This document shows positions 9,057-30,456 of a DNA stretch of 64,000 nt, one piece after another. Both the position numbers and the translations under genes were made by a program. Positions within the stretch are counted from its first letter, which is position 1. Every line of letters begins with the position of its first letter. The notes below the pieces were generated by a model. The model was given only the letters and a program-made list of their open reading frames with translations, searched no databases and was not told the origin of the DNA. The stretch is from Peribacillus sp. FSL P2-0133 (GTDB taxonomy: Bacteria > Bacillota > Bacilli > Bacillales > DSM-1321): NCBI RefSeq assembly GCF_037975445.1, contig NZ_CP150254.1, positions 3,842,001-3,906,000 on the forward strand, read 5' to 3'.

Positions 9057-9152
9057 TCAATCAAAATGCAGGTGATTATTTTCTGGATAGAATGTTCCTT
9101 TCGCGATAATTGTTGGCTCTTTGATGCTCAGCTCATTTTGCAATACATGCAT
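9057..9152 (-). CDS. Possible 31-residue peptide, unknown
   Basis: An ATG at 9152 preceded by AGAAGG at six bases opens a short frame ending at 9057, with product MHVLQNELSIKEPTIIAKGT and a further 11 residues ending in HLHFD. An in-frame ATG 30 bases upstream lacks a ribosome site. It lies 54 bases after the end of another small unknown ORF on the same strand, so the two may be cotranscribed. I recognise no family. The case rests on ribosome-site spacing only. Confidence 0.3.
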   Translation of the reverse strand: MHVLQNELSIKEPTIIAKGTFYPENNHLHFD

Positions 9153-9206
9153 TAAATTCCTTCTCTCTAAAATATTCCCCATAATTACTGAATGGTTCTC
9201 TTTCAG

Positions 9207-9431
9207 TTAGTTTTCTGAACAATTGAGTTTTACACTTGCGGACATTTTATCAGCCGCTATGTCTAACTCCGTAATCGTCCGTCTTCCCAATTGAATTCTT
9301 TCCCCGCTTGCCTCTGTCAGTGCATACTTCAAGTCTTTGACGTTCTCAAGCATGATTTGCGAAAAATCCAATAGGATAGGATTCAACTGAAGAATGGAAA
9401 AGCCTTTTTGACAAACGGTGATAAAATTCAT
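9207..9431 (-). CDS. Hypothetical 74-residue protein
   Basis: The product is a soluble, helix-rich protein starting MNFITVCQKGFSILQLNP and ending KLNCSEN. The start at 9431 is chosen because GGAGG lies upstream (spacing about 11); a longer reading to 9449 would begin within that site. I recognise no domain. It lies between yqiK and spo0A, a place with no equivalent small gene in B. subtilis that I can recall. It faces the same way as spo0A but is separated from it by a strong terminator, so it has its own promoter, possibly in the AT-rich stretch at 9500-9540. Confidence 0.45.
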   Translation of the reverse strand: MNFITVCQKGFSILQLNPILLDFSQIMLENVKDLKYALTEASGERIQLGRRTITELDIAADKMSASVKLNCSEN

Positions 9432-9839
9432 ATCTTTATCCGCCTCCATTACAAAATGCTCATTTTTTCATAAATCATTAATTCCACTCATTCTATAGTG
9501 GTCATATATACCTATATTTTATATATATATATATCTAAAAGTTAAGGAAAAGGGAGCTTTATAACACCTACTTCGTCTAAAATGATTTGTACCGCTTTTT
9601 CGACAAAACAAAAACGCCTTTTATTTATGGGATTTCCTTCAAAATCCAATAAATAAAAGGCGTTTAATTTTTTTAACCGGCATAAAAAATTTGAAGTTGC
9701 CGATTAGAAAAAATCAAGAAGCAACTTCTTCCTGTCCTTTACCTCCAGACGGAGAGTTCCTATTTATATTTAGCGGCTCTAGCCTTTATATGGTCAATTG
9801 TTACCCTGAATCCTTACAACCGGTTTTTCCCTACCCCTG
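9432..9839. other. Intergenic between the small ORF and spo0A
   Basis: This region holds an alternating TA tract (about 9512-9533), the spo0A terminator (9612-9665) and about 170 bases with no recognisable gene. I see nothing else in it. Confidence 0.6.
9612..9665 (-). terminator. Terminator downstream of spo0A
   Basis: A perfect 17-bp stem pairs 9612-9628 with 9649-9665 (AAACGCCTTTTATTTAT and its complement). The stem is A/T-rich at both ends, so it could act in both directions. Confidence 0.8.
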
Positions 9840-10631
9840 TCAAGAAGCTTTATGTTCGAGGCGCAGCTTATCGGCAACCATGGCAATGAATTCCGAATTT
9901 GTAGGCTTTGCCTTAGTCATGCTTACGGTATATCCGAAAAGAGATGATATGGATTCTATATTTCCACGGCTTCAGGCCACTTCAATCGCATGCCGGATAG
10001 CACGTTCAACACGGCTGGCTGTAGTATTGTATTTTTTTGCGATATCCGGATATAAAACTTTGGTGATAGAACCCAATAGTTCAATATCATTATATACCAT
10101 TGATATCGCTTCCCTTAAATACAAATAGCCCTTAATATGTGCTGGCACTCCAATCTCGTGAATGATGCTCGTGATGCTGGCATCGAGGTTCTTCGGCTTG
10201 GATTCATTTTGGGGACGATAGCTAAATTGACTATGATTTTTTAAAACCGCCTGCCCTTTACTGCTTACCTGACGTATGTGATTGGCCAGATTTTCCATAT
10301 CGAATGGTTTCAGAATAAAGTAAGACGCACCCAAATCAACAGCTTTTTTCGTTACATCTTCTTGACCAAAGGCAGTAAGCATAATCACATTAGGCATAGC
10401 ACCCCGTTTTACTTCACGAAGTTTTTCAAGTACACCTAACCCATCTAAATGAGGCATGATAATATCGAGGATCAATATATCCGGATCAACACTTTCAAGC
10501 ATCCCCAAGCAATCTTGACCGTTATGTGCCACCCCAATTACTTCCATGTCTTCCTGTGCAGAAATGTATTCTTCCAGAAGGCCAACAAGTTCTCTATTAT
10601 CATCTACAACGCACACCTTAATTTTTTTCAC
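9840..10631 (-). pseudogene. spo0A: Master sporulation regulator Spo0A interrupted by an in-frame TGA
   Basis: Spo0A is the phosphorelay response regulator that starts sporulation. The receiver domain is intact ([14 protein letters not shown]; phospho-acceptor in [36 protein letters not shown]), as is most of the DNA-binding domain ([20 protein letters not shown], then [20 protein letters not shown]). Codon 220 (9972-9974) is TGA where the family has the Trp of EVAWSRGNI. Beyond it the same frame continues without error ([20 protein letters not shown] to LRLEHKAS) to the normal stop at 9840. The read-through product would be 263 residues; termination gives 219. The GTG start at 10631 has AGGAGG at nine bases and fits the family start better than the TTG at 10649. 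The lost 44 residues are in the domain needed for activation and dimerisation, so a null is likely unless UGA is read through. Confidence 0.92.
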
Positions 10632-10700
10632 GCTTGATTTCCTCCTCAACTACAATTGGTCTTTTTTTCTATATGACTAAATTCTATTGTAATTGAACTT

Positions 10701-10961: not shown

Positions 10962-12263
10962 TTAGCTTGCCTTTTCATAATTATTTTTGTCGTATATATT
11001 TATACCGGCTTCGTTTAACATCCATTCGATATGGACTCCATACCCACTTGTAGGATCATTAACGAATACATGGGTGACTGCACCGATTAATTTCCCATTT
11101 TGTATGATAGGACTGCCGCTCATACCTTGAACGATCCCACCTGTTTTTTGCAGCAATTCCTTATCCGTCACTTTTAAGACCATTCCTTTAATTGCAGGAA
11201 ACTTCTGTGGTATAGAACTGACGATTTCGACATCGAATTCCTCCACTTCAGAACCATCCACCACTGTAAGGATTTTTGCTGGTCCTTCCTTTACCTCATG
11301 GGAAAGGGTGATGGGGAGTGGCTTGTCGTTAATTCCATTTTTAAAATCTTGATTTAATTTCCCAAAAATACCAAAGGGACTATTGCGATTGATATTTCCT
11401 ATTTTTTCTTTATTAGAAGAAAAGCGTGCCAATTTTTCTCCGGGATCACCATTGCTTCCTTTTTCGATGGATGTGACCGTCGATTGAACAATCTGTCCGT
11501 CCTTAACAACAATCGGCTTTTTTGTATCCATATCGGATATGACATGTCCCAACGCCCCATATTTTTTTGAATCCGGGTGATAAAACGTCATCGTTCCGAT
11601 ACCAGCTGCCGAATCACGGATATACAAACCCAATTTGTAAGTTCCTTCATTCTTATCTTTTAGAGGTAATAGGGTACTGTGGAGCACTTCATTATCACGA
11701 TTAATGACAAGATTCAACGCCTCACCCTTTTCGCCTGCCTGCTGAACAAAAGGGGTTACATCCCCCATCTTCTTTATCGTCTGACCATTGATTTCTGTAA
11801 TAATATCACCGATTTCAATTTTCGCTTTTTCTCCCGGTGATTTTTTCCCCTGCGCAGTATCAATAAGATGATGACCTACTACGAGCACCCCAAGAGTATT
11901 AAGCTTTACTCCAATGGATTGGCCACCAGGCATGACTTTAAAGTCTTTTAACACCCTGATGTCGACCTTTTTGGCAGGCAGGCCTGCTACATCGAGTAAC
12001 ACTTCATTCGTACCTGGCTTCTCAGCACCAAGCGTAATCGAAGCTTGTTCATCATGAAGCGAAATTCCATCACTGGATCCCGAAGTTTTTGCAGAAACAG
12101 GCAATGATTTGGAAATACTATATTGACTTCCTTCAAATAGTACAAGATGATTTGGAATTAAAAAATATTCACGAGATGGCTGGTATAACCCTAATGTTAA
12201 TAGCGAAACAAGGAGAATTCCACCGATGATCCTGTTTATCCATATAAATTTCAATCCATTCAC
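10962..12263 (-). CDS. spoIVB: SpoIVB intercompartmental signalling serine peptidase
   Basis: SpoIVB is made in the forespore, secreted into the intermembrane space, and triggers pro-sigma-K processing through SpoIVFA. The 433-residue protein has an N-terminal membrane anchor (about 9-28), a PDZ domain (about 110-195) and an S55-family peptidase domain. Catalytic His and Ser are visible in [12 protein letters not shown] and [15 protein letters not shown], and the C-terminus matches the family ([14 protein letters not shown]). It starts with ATG after GAGGAG. It is intact, lying just upstream of the broken spo0A, as in B. subtilis. Forespore-specific control is expected from the family; I did not confirm the promoter. 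Confidence 0.95.
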
Positions 12264-25238: not shown

Positions 25239-25826
25239 TTACTTTTCCGGTTGGAAATCGACCACAACATTTTGTGCATCGCTCACTTCTTTCCTTACGA
25301 GGCGGATAATGTTATTGGCCTCTGTTTTCGTCTGTTTATCAGCCTTGACACTCACCTTTACATCCGTACCGTCCACCCGGACCAGTGCGGCATTGTAATC
25401 CATGGCAACTATTAAGTTTTCGATGATATTTTCTTTTACTTTCGTTTCACTTAATTGTTCGATTTTTGCATAAGCCTCGTCTCTTTCTTCAGCTGATAGT
25501 TCTGTATTGCCCATCTTTGCAGTCAATTCTTCATTCAGCTTCGCCCGTTCATCTTCAATCTGCATCCTTAACGATTCGAACTCATCTCCAGATGCAATGG
25601 TTACAGAGGAACCTTCTGTATTTTTGGACGTTTCTTTTTCACTTTTATTTTCCTCTTTTGTATCTGCTTTGTTCTCTGTTTTAGTTTCTGTTTTATTTCC
25701 TTCCTGTTGCTCTGTTGCCGTCATATCGGCGGCATTTTCTTCAGGAGCGGTTAAATAATAGACTGAAAGCACAACGACCAGACTTAGCATAGTCAATAAC
25801 CAAACGGTTTGTTTTTTTAATAACAT
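25239..25826 (-). CDS. spoIIIAH: Stage III sporulation protein AH (forespore-mother cell channel)
   Basis: SpoIIIAH lies in the mother-cell membrane and binds forespore SpoIIQ across the intermembrane space, forming a channel or feeding tube. The 195-residue protein has one N-terminal membrane segment (about 8-26), a long charged Glu/Lys/Thr linker (about 30-75), and a C-terminal domain resembling ring-forming secretion proteins (FESLRMQIEDERAKL to VVDFQPE). It is the last gene of the eight-gene operon and is slightly shorter than the B. subtilis protein. Confidence 0.93.
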   Translation of the reverse strand: MLLKKQTVWLLTMLSLVVVLSVYYLTAPEENAADMTATEQQEGNKTETKTENKADTKEENKSEKETSKNTEGSSVTIASGDEFESLRMQIEDERAKLNEELTAKMGNTELSAEERDEAYAKIEQLSETKVKENIIENLIVAMDYNAALVRVDGTDVKVSVKADKQTKTEANNIIRLVRKEVSDAQNVVVDFQPEK

Positions 25827-25840
25827 GTAGATTTTCCCCC

Positions 25841-26512
25841 TTATTTTTTAGGCATGACAGAAACCCTGTGACTCGGTACATCAAGTGAGCGTGTGACAGC
25901 CTCGATGATCCACTTCTTTATTTGAATGTTTTCGGCCCCTTTAGCGACAACCAGAACTCCTCGTACACTAGGTTTTTTCGTTTCCGAAATGATCGGTCCT
26001 TCTTTTTCACCGCTCTTGACCAAAACTAGCTGTTCATCAACAGATGTGTCTTCGACCGTCCTTTTGCCGCCTTCCTGGTCGGTTTCTTCAGTGACTTGTT
26101 TTTGGGTGACTTTGTTTCTTTCATATACTTTTTTCTCGGATGCATCGACGTAAATTACGACTTTTACATCCTGGACGCCTGCGATGGATTCAAGCGCTTC
26201 CTTCATTTCATTCTGAAGATATATTTCATAGTCTTTTGTTGTCTTGAATTCTGATTTCTTCTGCCCGAATGTTTCAACATCCCCCTCATCATCCTGCTGT
26301 TTATCATTATTGAATACAGTCTTCACTTCAGGTGTTTGTCCAGTCTGGTTGGTGGTTAACAAATTCCCGGCCATCATGATTCCCGCTCCCAAAAGGACAA
26401 CTATTAGAGCATAGACATACAGGGAAGGTTTTTTTTCCTTAGGCTCTTTTTGGTCAGGGTCTTTATTTAATAGTTTTTGCAGCCAGGATAATGGACCTTT
26501 GTCTTTGTTCAA
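25841..26512 (-). CDS. spoIIIAG: Stage III sporulation protein AG
   Basis: SpoIIIAG forms a large ring in the intermembrane space as part of the SpoIIIA-SpoIIQ complex. The 223 residues include one membrane segment (about 30-48) and the ring-building domain, ending in the conserved VRGVLVVAKGAENIQIKKWI and DVPSHRVSVMPKK. The TTG at 26512 is the likely start, about ten bases after an AAGGAAG site, and lies 7 bases past the spoIIIAF stop. Confidence 0.92.
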   Translation of the reverse strand: MNKDKGPLSWLQKLLNKDPDQKEPKEKKPSLYVYALIVVLLGAGIMMAGNLLTTNQTGQTPEVKTVFNNDKQQDDEGDVETFGQKKSEFKTTKDYEIYLQNEMKEALESIAGVQDVKVVIYVDASEKKVYERNKVTQKQVTEETDQEGGKRTVEDTSVDEQLVLVKSGEKEGPIISETKKPSVRGVLVVAKGAENIQIKKWIIEAVTRSLDVPSHRVSVMPKK

Positions 26513-26519
26513 TACTCAG

Positions 26520-27128
26520 TCACTTCCTTTCCCCGGCGATTTCAATGATTTCTTCATCAACAGACCAACTTGTTGCCAGAAACCTTTTGACAGCATCCAG
26601 ATTGGCATCATTCGAAGTGGATGGGCTATCTGCATTGATATCAACCTTCGCTACTGCCTCTATCTCCGAGTTTTCTTTCCCTTCTGCCTTTTCCAATGAG
26701 ATGGTTATGTTCTGCAGATCATCAACACCCGGTTCTTCCTCATTCTTGACCCCTACATCAATTGAACTAATCTTCATGTTATAATCCACCATCAGCTCCT
26801 CTTCCACTTCTGCCTGTAAGTCAACAGCCATTTGTTTTAAAATATATGCACCCTGGGTAGCTTGTATTTCTTTTTTCTTCATTTCTGTCAAATTTCCTAA
26901 ATCTTTTTTTTCCTGATCCTCAAATTCACTAGTAGCCGCAGTGAGAATATCGTCGAAATCCATATTGAATAATCCCAATATAGGAGTGATGATGATCGCA
27001 ATCAGTAAAAGTCCGATGACCATTTTTGCATACTTCTGTAAAGCTGAATTCGGAAGAAGCATATCAATCACAGTAGCCAGCAATACAAATATGATGATGT
27101 TGGATACCCAGCCAGCTAAAAAACTCAC
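26520..27128 (-). CDS. spoIIIAF: Stage III sporulation protein AF
   Basis: SpoIIIAF is a membrane component of the SpoIIIA complex. The 202 residues have two N-terminal membrane segments (about 8-26 and 33-52; IDMLLPNSALQKYAKMVIGL between them) and a soluble C-terminal domain resembling SpoIIIAH. The GTG at 27128 after GGAGGAGG fits the family start VSFLAGWVSN better than the TTG one codon earlier. It sits between spoIIIAE and spoIIIAG with very short gaps. Confidence 0.92.
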   Translation of the reverse strand: MSFLAGWVSNIIIFVLLATVIDMLLPNSALQKYAKMVIGLLLIAIIITPILGLFNMDFDDILTAATSEFEDQEKKDLGNLTEMKKKEIQATQGAYILKQMAVDLQAEVEEELMVDYNMKISSIDVGVKNEEEPGVDDLQNITISLEKAEGKENSEIEAVAKVDINADSPSTSNDANLDAVKRFLATSWSVDEEIIEIAGERK

Positions 27129-27144
27129 CAAGCCCTCCTCCTTT

Positions 27145-28353
27145 CTAACGAACCATCAGGGTAATGTTTCCAGAGGCGATAATTACCGTGACACTTAAAA
27201 AAAACATGAGTGAGACAATGGCCAATGCAGCGAAAATATAAATCATGCTTTTACTTATAATGTCAAGGCATTTTATAACAGGTCCTCCGCCCAGCGGCTG
27301 CAAAAGACTCGCTGCCAATTTATATACAAAAGAAATCATCAAGATTTTTATGGCGGGAAATGTGGTAATGAGCAAGAGAATGATGACGCCTGACAAGCCC
27401 ACTGTATTTTTCAATAGGACGGAGGCACTGATGACGGTATCCGTTGCATCGGTAAACATGCGCCCTATTACCGGTATAAAGTTACCTGTCACGAATTTGG
27501 CTGTCCTGATGGTCACTCCGTCAGCTACAGCTGAGGATGCTCCCTGAACGGAGATCACACCAAGGAATATGGTCATGAATGCTCCAAGGATACCGATGGC
27601 AAAATTACGGAGAAGTTGTGCCATCTGAGTCACTTTGTAATGTTCGGTCAGCGTGCTGACTATGCTTAAAATCGCTGCAAAGAATAATAACGGAAGGACG
27701 ACAAACTGGATCAAGATGCCGCTTGTATTCATCAAAAACATCAATACCGGATGAAAGAATGCTGCCGATACAAGTCCGCCTGAAGCAGCTATCAATGCCA
27801 AGAGTAAAGGGATGAGCGCCATTAAAAAGGAAATCATCAAATCTATCGTATCTTTTGTATATTCCATCGCCACATGAAAACTGTTAAGTGCCAAAATGAT
27901 CAGAACCATATAAACGATTGCATAAGCGACCTTACTTACGGAGCTTTGCTCGAACGCATTCTGCAAAGATTGGAGGAACATGCTGAAAACGGTTAATAAA
28001 ATGAGTGATCCCAGCAGCTTTCCATTCACGAGCAGTTCATGAAAAATGAATTTTGTCATTCCCTTTATCCATTGCTCAAAGGAAAATTTCTTATCGCCGC
28101 TTACAAAATCCATGAAGCTCCCTTTCTGGCTTTCCGGTAAGAATCCTCCGTATTCCGTAACGATGTCATCCCAATATTGTTTGAGTTCATCAACACCAAG
28201 CCTTTCTATTTGGGCTTGTACCAGTTCGGACTGCATGATCGGCTCTTGATCGATTTCACCATTTTCTGGATTTTCGGCAGCTTGTCCAATAGATGCATGC
28301 AAAAAAAAGAGTAAAACGAATAGAATGGATAAGTAAGGCATCCGCTGCTTCAT
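27145..28353 (-). CDS. spoIIIAE: Stage III sporulation protein AE
   Basis: SpoIIIAE is the large polytopic membrane subunit of the SpoIIIA complex. The 402 residues start with a cleavable-looking signal peptide (LSILFVLLFFLHASIGQAA), then a soluble region (about 27-110) and roughly seven membrane segments to the C-terminus. The conserved FVTGNFIPVIGRMFTDATDT and CLDIISKSMIYIFAALAIVS are visible. It starts at ATG after a GAGGTG site. Confidence 0.94.
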   Translation of the reverse strand: MKQRMPYLSILFVLLFFLHASIGQAAENPENGEIDQEPIMQSELVQAQIERLGVDELKQYWDDIVTEYGGFLPESQKGSFMDFVSGDKKFSFEQWIKGMTKFIFHELLVNGKLLGSLILLTVFSMFLQSLQNAFEQSSVSKVAYAIVYMVLIILALNSFHVAMEYTKDTIDLMISFLMALIPLLLALIAASGGLVSAAFFHPVLMFLMNTSGILIQFVVLPLLFFAAILSIVSTLTEHYKVTQMAQLLRNFAIGILGAFMTIFLGVISVQGASSAVADGVTIRTAKFVTGNFIPVIGRMFTDATDTVISASVLLKNTVGLSGVIILLLITTFPAIKILMISFVYKLAASLLQPLGGGPVIKCLDIISKSMIYIFAALAIVSLMFFLSVTVIIASGNITLMVR

Positions 28354-28386
28354 ACATTCACCTCATTGACTAGTAGGAGTAATCCA

Positions 28387-28776
28387 TTAACTAGGGAGCA
28401 TCTGTAAAATCGTTTCGATAATGACCGTCAAAATCGGAATCGCCATGGCAAGAATCAAGATTTTTCCGCTCAATTCTATTTTGGAAGCGAGCGAACCTTG
28501 CCCCGCATCTTTTGTAATTTGAGAAGCGAATTCTGCAATATAGGCAATTCCGATTATTTTTAAGATGGTCTCTAGATACACGGTATTTACATTCGCATTA
28601 ACTGCAATTTTTTCTAACATTAAAATGATTTCGTATATTTTGTCAGCTAAAAAAAGAAAGATGGAGCATCCTACAAAAACGACTAGCAGGAATGCGAAAT
28701 TTGGTTTTTGCTCTTTGACGATCAGTGCCAAAAAGGTGGCAACTAGGGCAATGGCCACGATTTTTATGATTTCAAT
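28387..28776 (-). CDS. spoIIIAD: Stage III sporulation protein AD, probable ATT start
   Basis: SpoIIIAD is a small polytopic membrane subunit of the SpoIIIA channel complex. The sequence matches the family strongly (ATFLALIVKEQKPNFAFLLVVF; AEFASQITKDAGQGSLASKI). The first standard start in frame, GTG at 28758, has no ribosome site within reach: the only one, GGGAGGG, lies 25 bases upstream. An ATT codon at 28776 lies seven bases after it and gives the N-terminus IEIIKIVAIALV, close to the family length. I therefore place the start at the ATT (129 residues). The shorter GTG form would lose part of the first membrane segment. Confidence 0.85.
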   Translation of the reverse strand: MEIIKIVAIALVATFLALIVKEQKPNFAFLLVVFVGCSIFLFLADKIYEIILMLEKIAVNANVNTVYLETILKIIGIAYIAEFASQITKDAGQGSLASKIELSGKILILAMAIPILTVIIETILQMLPS

Positions 28777-28790
28777 CGCGAATCCCTCCC

Positions 28791-28994
28791 TTACTGAAAT
28801 AGAAATACAGATTTAATTTTTTGAAATAAATCCTCTACAACAGAAGCAACCATGAATAAAATATAGATAAATCCGAAAAGTGTCACCCATTGGGCATATT
28901 CCTTCTTCCCAACCTGATCGAGTATCGTGTGAAGAAATGCCACAACTAGCCCAACACCCGCTATTTTAAATATGATGTCCACATCAATGCCCAT
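28791..28994 (-). CDS. spoIIIAC: Stage III sporulation protein AC
   Basis: SpoIIIAC is a 67-residue protein with two membrane segments (about 7-25 and 34-53) that belongs to the SpoIIIA membrane platform. The match is clear: VVAFLHTILDQVGKKEYAQW and VTLFGFIYILFMVA. The ATG at 28994 follows a GGGGGG site at suitable spacing; longer readings to 29009 begin inside that site. Confidence 0.94.
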   Translation of the reverse strand: MGIDVDIIFKIAGVGLVVAFLHTILDQVGKKEYAQWVTLFGFIYILFMVASVVEDLFQKIKSVFLFQ

Positions 28995-29015
28995 TTTCAT
29001 TCCCCCCACATATTC

Positions 29016-29531
29016 CTACATCAGCAAGATGATCAATAATAGCCCTGATAAAAAACCAAGACTTTTCATCATTTTTTCATATTTTCCCTGGCGGTCGAGT
29101 GCATCGCTCTCTTCCCGTTCCAAATGTGCCATCGTTAGCATGATTTGCTTTTGCTGATGATATTTATCGCTTTTTCCAAGCGTCTCCCCAAACTGTGAAA
29201 GAATCTCGAATTCTCCCTGTTGTAAAGCAAGGGATTGCCATATTTTCTTCAAACTATCATCCCATGCTTCTTTGACGGTGGTCTCACCTGACTCGAGTCG
29301 ATTTGCAAATGTATCGAAAAAGATGGATAAAGGTTTAGCCATCTGTTTAGAAAGTTTCCTTGCTGCTTCTTTCAAAGGTGTATGACCATACATGATTTCA
29401 GCTTCAAGCGATTGCATGGCGACTTTCAGCTGTCTCAGTTGACGAGGCCTCATACTTAATTTTTTCGCAGCTTCGAAACCTGCCCATGTCGTTGCAATAA
29501 TAATTATCGCTGCTCCTATTATCTTAAACAT
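29016..29531 (-). CDS. spoIIIAB: Stage III sporulation protein AB
   Basis: SpoIIIAB resembles the GspF/PilC-type platform proteins of type II secretion systems. The 171 residues have membrane segments at both ends (about 3-20 and 152-170) around a helical domain with LRQLKVAMQSLEAEIMYGHTPL and EREESDALDRQGKYEKMMKS. Its start overlaps the spoIIIAA end by eight bases, so translation is coupled. Confidence 0.93.
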   Translation of the reverse strand: MFKIIGAAIIIIATTWAGFEAAKKLSMRPRQLRQLKVAMQSLEAEIMYGHTPLKEAARKLSKQMAKPLSIFFDTFANRLESGETTVKEAWDDSLKKIWQSLALQQGEFEILSQFGETLGKSDKYHQQKQIMLTMAHLEREESDALDRQGKYEKMMKSLGFLSGLLLIILLM

Positions 29532-30456
29532 GCGGGCTCACACCTTCTCCCAAGAAAATGGGAACCCCCGCTGCATCAAGGACTTTGTAGCTCCTCTTAC
29601 CGGATTTACTTCTCTGTAATTCTATAAAACGTTCAAAGATGTTTTGCTTTAATATTTCCGCGATAAAAGGTCGCTTCTTAATCTCACCCAGTGTATGGCC
29701 ATGTGTGGTTATCATGAGTTTAATACCTGCATTCACCGCTTCCAGCACAGCCTGTGTATCCTCTGCACGACCTATTTCATCCACGATCAATACATCCGGG
29801 GACATTGAACGGATCATCATCATCATCCCTTCCGCTTTAGGACATCCATCGAGCACATCAACCCTTGTTCCAAATTCGAGTTGCGGCACTCCATGAACAC
29901 ATCCGGCAATTTCCGAGCGCTCGTCCACTATCCCCACCTTTTGAGGAGCAATGCCGCGTTTTTCATTACCACTGGATATCATTCTTGCAATATCACGTAA
30001 TATGGTCGTTTTTCCCGTTTGCGGAGCACCGATCAACATAGTATGCTGCCATTCCCCGTCAAATAAATATGAAGTGAGTGGTTCAGCTGCACCTATTTTT
30101 TCACGTGCAACCCGAATATTGAATGAGGATATATCCCTGATCGCTTTGACCGACCCATTTTCAAGGATCACCTTCCCAGCAAGCCCCACCCGATGTCCGC
30201 CCGCTATGGTTATATAACCTCGCTTTAATTCTTCCTCAAGTGTATATAACGAAAATTGGCCTATTTGATTCAATAATTGATCTGCATCCAGATGGGTCAC
30301 TTCATAGGAAAAGAAGTATGGTTCCCCTCCTACAATGACCTCAAGCGGCCTTCCAACCCGAATTCGCAGCTCTTCCATCTTATCGATCATCATCGGTGTC
30401 ATACCCCGGAGTTGCTCGTTTAATTTTTTCGGTAAAAAAGAAAGAATCGTTTCCAT
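29524..30456 (-). CDS. spoIIIAA: Stage III sporulation protein AA (ATPase)
   Basis: SpoIIIAA is the AAA+-type ATPase of the SpoIIIA channel, related to type II/IV secretion ATPases. The 310 residues contain Walker A GAPQTGKTTILRDIARM, the Walker B DVLIVDEIG, and the conserved GIVDERSEIAGC and TTHGHTLGEIKKRP motifs. It is the first gene of the operon, with an ATG after AGGAGG. Mother-cell sigma-E transcription is expected from the family; I did not confirm the promoter. Confidence 0.95.
   Translation of the reverse strand: METILSFLPKKLNEQLRGMTPMMIDKMEELRIRVGRPLEVIVGGEPYFFSYEVTHLDADQLLNQIGQFSLYTLEEELKRGYITIAGGHRVGLAGKVILENGSVKAIRDISSFNIRVAREKIGAAEPLTSYLFDGEWQHTMLIGAPQTGKTTILRDIARMISSGNEKRGIAPQKVGIVDERSEIAGCVHGVPQLEFGTRVDVLDGCPKAEGMMMMIRSMSPDVLIVDEIGRAEDTQAVLEAVNAGIKLMITTHGHTLGEIKKRPFIAEILKQNIFERFIELQRSKSGKRSYKVLDAAGVPIFLGEGVSPHV

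Follow-up and report, generated by a model that had tools for sequence, protein, structure and literature searches.

The spo0A gene of Peribacillus sp. FSL P2-0133 contains an in-frame TGA at codon 220, in place of a tryptophan codon, and this stop is probably a recent and real loss-of-function allele, carried by an asporogenous isolate or a laboratory derivative. The basis for this reading is the assembly sequence, the uniqueness of the stop among the relatives examined and the intact remainder of the gene; from there we infer the loss of function and the origin. The frame is otherwise conserved with this single lesion, close relatives carry intact copies, and the lesion would be a disabling one. 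As a spo0A stop mutation it is of an ordinary, known kind. An earlier note on this DNA had offered three readings, a recent natural or laboratory mutant unable to sporulate, a sequencing error or decoding of UGA. The first is the best supported, because the lesion is isolated, the changes around it are nearly all synonymous and the other sporulation genes examined are intact.

The window, the whole stretch of 64,000 nucleotides that was analysed, contains spo0A on the minus strand together with further sporulation genes (Table 1). With the premature TGA read as tryptophan, spo0A is an unbroken frame of 263 codons from the GTG start. Counted from the mechanical TTG at 10649 the length would be 269 codons; the aligned Spo0A frames contain six stops if read from the TTG and none if read from the GTG. 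Codon 220 presumably corresponds to position 224 in B. subtilis, counted from the C-terminus and with the B. subtilis protein taken to be 267 residues long. The start is thus normal, as the earlier note had it, and the codons that follow the premature stop remain in frame, match the family and end in the usual terminator.

Table 1. Positions of spo0A features and of other sporulation genes in the window.
Feature	Position	Strand	Description
spo0A reading frame	9840..10631	-	GTG start at 10629-10631 behind GAGGAGG; terminator TGA at 9840-9842
Premature TGA, spo0A codon 220	9972..9974	-	TCA on the + strand
219-codon truncated Spo0A product	9975..10631	-	Receiver domain, linker, and DNA-binding domain to the end of the recognition-helix region
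43 codons past the premature stop	9843..9971	-	Family match kept; the final two predicted helices (225-231, 245-260) lie here
spoIVB, intact	10962..12263	-	TIGR02860, 567 bits
spoIIIA region	25239..30456	-	SpoIIIAA, AB and AE confirmed by family models, open frames

The comparison with related strains that the earlier note had proposed gave TGG at codon 220 in all 110 loci fetched (L002-L111; these are counted as loci, since two collections, L002-L031 and L032-L111, were combined and share some genomes), and the replacement of the tryptophan codon is therefore real as far as the assembly goes. A single recent G-to-A transition (C-to-T on the plus strand) would have turned this invariant codon into TGA. 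The Spo0A_C domain was found in 59 of the 60 relatives searched, none of the 59 with a stop within the domain, and in 391 of 397 genomes of the order, the present genome included. Fifteen genomes with a low score, no Spo0A_C domain or some other oddity were searched again. In G084 (L251 / L258) and G148 (L252 / L259), both from other families within the order, the gene is spread over two frames. A contig end truncates it in G097, and in G026 it is interrupted by unknown bases and changes frame. Six of the genomes searched again gave no Spo0A match above the family cut-off. A genome from another genus of the same family, G264, has no Spo0A_C match above the cut-off while being 99% complete, and is possibly an asporogenous lineage.

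The nearest named relatives at the region are P. simplex RUG2-6 (locus L033, with an unbroken Spo0A; 97.6% over an alignment of 12.3 kb) and P. frigoritolerans RU293 (96.2%). Compared with the relatives G004, G030 and G033, spo0A has 10, 20 and 11 synonymous codon differences and, with the stop excluded, two, two and one non-synonymous ones, respectively. Downstream of the premature stop all differences are synonymous, so that the stop is either young or an error; the C-terminal residues that it removes are highly conserved. At codon 124 (10260-10262), in the linker past the receiver domain, the gene has Ser where 98 of the 110 loci have Gly. Four loci also have Ser at this position, and the residue is therefore probably tolerated.

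The lesion is isolated in the window as well. Among 52 window genes, tested from the frames of the relatives (all 52 aligned in G004 and G030, 45 in G033), spo0A alone has an in-frame stop that is absent from the relatives. The other stop-bearing frames flagged in the comparison of spo0A and its surroundings with these relatives lie on the opposite strand of a gene or in another of its frames, upstream of a likely start, or in short stretches between genes. A separate comparison listed three minus-strand frames of G004 that have a stop in the present genome. At codons where G004, G030 and G033 agree, the private changes comprise 280 synonymous codons, 76 non-synonymous codons and one stop, in a count that covers 45 of the 52 genes fully, one partly and six not at all. 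Genome-wide, no internal stop was found in 136 ABC-transporter domain matches (150 of 220 candidates scored), 22 sigma-factor matches or 35 HisKA kinase matches. Widespread gene decay or a poor assembly was considered and rejected, with no sign of either in the domain matches or the window genes.

Sigma factors F, E, G and K are full length according to NCBIfam models. The earlier note had described spoIVB and the spoIIIA operon as intact, and this was borne out for SpoIVB, SpoIIIAA, SpoIIIAB and SpoIIIAE; the frame at 25239-25826 in the spoIIIA region gave no NCBIfam hit. AbrB is identical to that of G004 over 94 residues, and no suppressor was seen in abrB. Directly downstream of spo0A lie about 490 bases (9104-9596) that do not align to G004, G030 or G033 and contain a small minus-strand frame (9207-9449). 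Matches in G017, G023 and G031 continue from about 9095 into this stretch, which on these alignments is an accessory segment.

The main rival to the loss-of-function allele is an error of sequencing or consensus at codon 220, in which case spo0A would be an ordinary gene. Only one base is involved; where it lies, the relatives have a CCAGG motif of which it forms the outer C, a type of context in which nanopore assemblies can err. The outer bases of CCWGG sites, with the codon 220 site included, are changed in 3 of 133 cases against a background of 0.81%; this slight excess is not significant (P about 0.09) and speaks neither for nor against an error linked to the motif. The genome is a single contig of 5,810,370 bases, 100% complete and 0.28% contaminated. 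Neither the 193 domain matches nor the other 51 window genes contain internal stops, although none of these figures tests one single base. Synonymous codons outnumber non-synonymous ones among the private changes of the window (280:76), as real divergence would give. An error is considered unlikely.

The third reading, that UGA is decoded, takes two forms of different weight. Efficient reading of UGA as tryptophan, by a changed code or a suppressor tRNA, would yield a normal Spo0A, and the preserved frame past the stop agrees with this. The tRNA set does not: ARAGORN gave one tRNA-Trp, with anticodon CCA, and none with UCA among 82 tRNA places (150 of 396 candidates scored). Of 11 relatives, 8 have exactly this tRNA-Trp, and the other three (G004, G030 and G033) differ from it at position 57. 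No tRNA-Sec was reported in the stretches scanned. The release factor RF2 (L264, 348 codons) keeps the CTTTGAC frameshift site and has no residue absent from six relatives; seven relatives were fetched, the G031 stretch missed the gene, and the comparison covers the part past the frameshift. Of the 61 long non-overlapping frames in the window, 23 end in TGA if the premature one is counted, and spo0A itself normally terminates with TGA, so that efficient decoding as tryptophan would extend the protein past its proper end. Such a code would also place TGA inside genes, and the 193 domain matches contain no internal stop. As an efficient, genome-wide property the decoding of UGA is thus unsupported by tRNAs, RF2 and stop usage, and its probability is close to nil.

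What stands of the decoding claim is a possible basal readthrough of a few per cent. Ordinary leaky termination at UGA would then supply a few per cent of full-length Spo0A, which might suffice for low-threshold targets and not for normal sporulation. In PMC7918605, which cites Karow 1998, 6% readthrough of the catA86 TGA is given for a prfB+ B. subtilis strain, and prfB mutations are said to suppress spoIIR TGA mutations. On the other side, no feature favouring readthrough was found and RF2 looks ordinary. A leaky allele of this kind is possible but quite improbable.

If the stop is a real allele, translation would end after 219 residues; the receiver would be kept, and the protein would lack the last part of the recognition-helix region as well as the two helices after it. 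The encoded 219-residue product scores 352 bits against the NCBIfam model for Spo0A (TIGR02875, cut-off 200), covering profile positions 1-218 of 262. D10, D11, D56, T86 and K108, residues with roles in the receiver domain, fall in invariant columns and are all present in the window sequence, in line with the normal receiver domain described in the earlier note. A complete C-terminal DNA-binding and activation domain (TIGR02875 / PF08769) is absent from the encoded product, which ends at residue 219; 44 residues are lost. The effector domain aligns end to end with the solved structures 1LQ1 and 1FC3. A structure model of low confidence (mean pLDDT 64.1, below 50 at residues 219-263 and in some stretches of the effector domain), consulted only for the order of the helices, places helices at residues 205-221, 225-231 and 245-260, of which the latter two would be lost.

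Such a truncated Spo0A would be unable to activate sporulation promoters, making the strain asporogenous and altering other traits under Spo0A control, while the intact receiver may go on drawing phosphate away from the phosphorelay. According to PMC9195935, deletion of the last 15 residues of Spo0A has been used to block sporulation at stage 0, and it is for this reason that loss of function is judged likely from the sequence. The same source speaks against it in one respect, as Paenibacillus polymyxa still formed spores with the C-terminal substitution A257V. Like the present stop, both of these alleles affect the C-terminal end of the effector domain. A257V differs in that it keeps abrB repression in B. 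subtilis and spores in P. polymyxa, whereas the truncated Spo0A described here has probably lost abrB repression too, because its missing 44 residues take in the last part of the recognition-helix region.

Alleles of this kind are known from culture. In B. subtilis 3NA, which is non-sporulating, spo0A carries a single nonsense mutation (spo0A3), as is the case here; the strain differs in having an AbrB elongated by eleven residues, while AbrB in the present genome is that of G004 (PMC8474915). Priestia megaterium, likewise a soil bacterium once placed in Bacillus, gives a parallel: in 9 of 16 populations evolved in TSB, the spo0A mutation that had reached the highest frequency by 21 days was a nonsense or frameshift one (PMC12016532). 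Gene and lesion class are the same as here, and the history is known there and inferred here. These populations also had prfB mutations, in contrast to the present genome, in which the RF2 frame has no private residue. Against this, one domestication of B. subtilis in rich medium kept sporulation (PMC7642357). The likeliest origin of the present allele would be propagation in rich medium, where such spo0A alleles can be favoured in relatives of Bacillus. Sporulating P. frigoritolerans has been described (PMC11678259) and Peribacillus are called spore-formers (PMC12067966). The literature search found no paper on this spo0A allele or on recurrent spo0A loss in Peribacillus.

Unusual changes in Spo0A were also found elsewhere in the genus, in a survey of 35 further genomes of the genus and two others against the columns of the 110 loci. 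Three genomes of the close group deviate at columns that are identical in all 110 loci: G004 (L298) has T86P, at the conserved threonine of the receiver, G007 (L301) has M59T, at a position which we take to be three residues from the Asp that is phosphorylated, and G001 (L330 / L245) has G161E. Outside the close group, G002 has the milder V93L, likewise at a column identical in all 110 loci, and G009, G020, G024 and G029 deviate at columns conserved in 107-109 of the 110 loci. With the stop at W220, 4 of the 21 species-level genomes of the close group thus have unique Spo0A changes at columns that are invariant in 75 outgroup loci.

In the close group spo0A is variable at only 12 columns, and four of these 12 are outgroup-invariant, each changed in one genome. 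The corresponding figure for seven control genes (spoIVB, recN, argR, tlyA, leuDH, bkdR and glpQ) is 20 of 506 clade-variable columns with a block in G025 included (P 0.0014) and 8 of 494 without it (P 8e-5); tlyA and leuDH, both also rich in invariant columns, have 0 of 44 and 0 of 38. Counted per cell the contrast is weaker, single-genome deviations numbering 4 in 2,877 for spo0A and 4 in 17,059 for the controls (P 0.019); with the first four controls alone, P was 0.0036, 0.035 or 0.065, according to the treatment of ancestral changes and of the G025 block. The count over all seven controls drops the G025 row of spoIVB (its 12 deviations sit in a single block that looks frame-shifted), changes shared by 2, 3, 15 or 19 genomes (glpQ I48M, bkdR E430D, E254D and K216R) and changes present in all 21 (recN E294D, argR G111C, bkdR E360Q and L577M). 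The outgroup comprised 75 loci for spo0A and spoIVB, 72-74 for recN, argR and tlyA, and 45-55 for leuDH, bkdR and glpQ; the last three were taken under a looser coverage rule, and eight leuDH rows are partial. The comparison of spo0A with the controls is post hoc, devised once the data had been seen. In G025 (L344), the spoIVB block spans residues of about 238-277 and alters 12 invariant positions, a picture that a compensated frameshift or an assembly error would give.

The pattern of T86P, M59T and G161E may reflect repeated loss of Spo0A among sequenced Peribacillus. In a stronger form, separate tip lineages of the Peribacillus simplex group would each have lost Spo0A function on their own, and the loss of sporulation would be a parallel adaptation still under way, whether in culture or in nature, and not a single accident; this is a tentative proposal to which we give somewhat less than an even chance. 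The pattern fits sequenced isolates that have passed through rich-medium culture, given the spo0A nonsense and frameshift mutations in 9 of 16 TSB-evolved populations of Priestia megaterium (PMC12016532), though the domesticated B. subtilis kept sporulation (PMC7642357).

Should the allele be real, the stock that was sequenced probably forms no spores, with consequences for its use as a species reference, an inoculant or a phenotype standard for the entry "forms spores". The possible recurrence of Spo0A changes across the group is the part most worth following. If the wider pattern is true, reference genomes of spore-formers can carry spo0A mutations selected in culture, and the rate of spo0A loss would be measurable from public assemblies.
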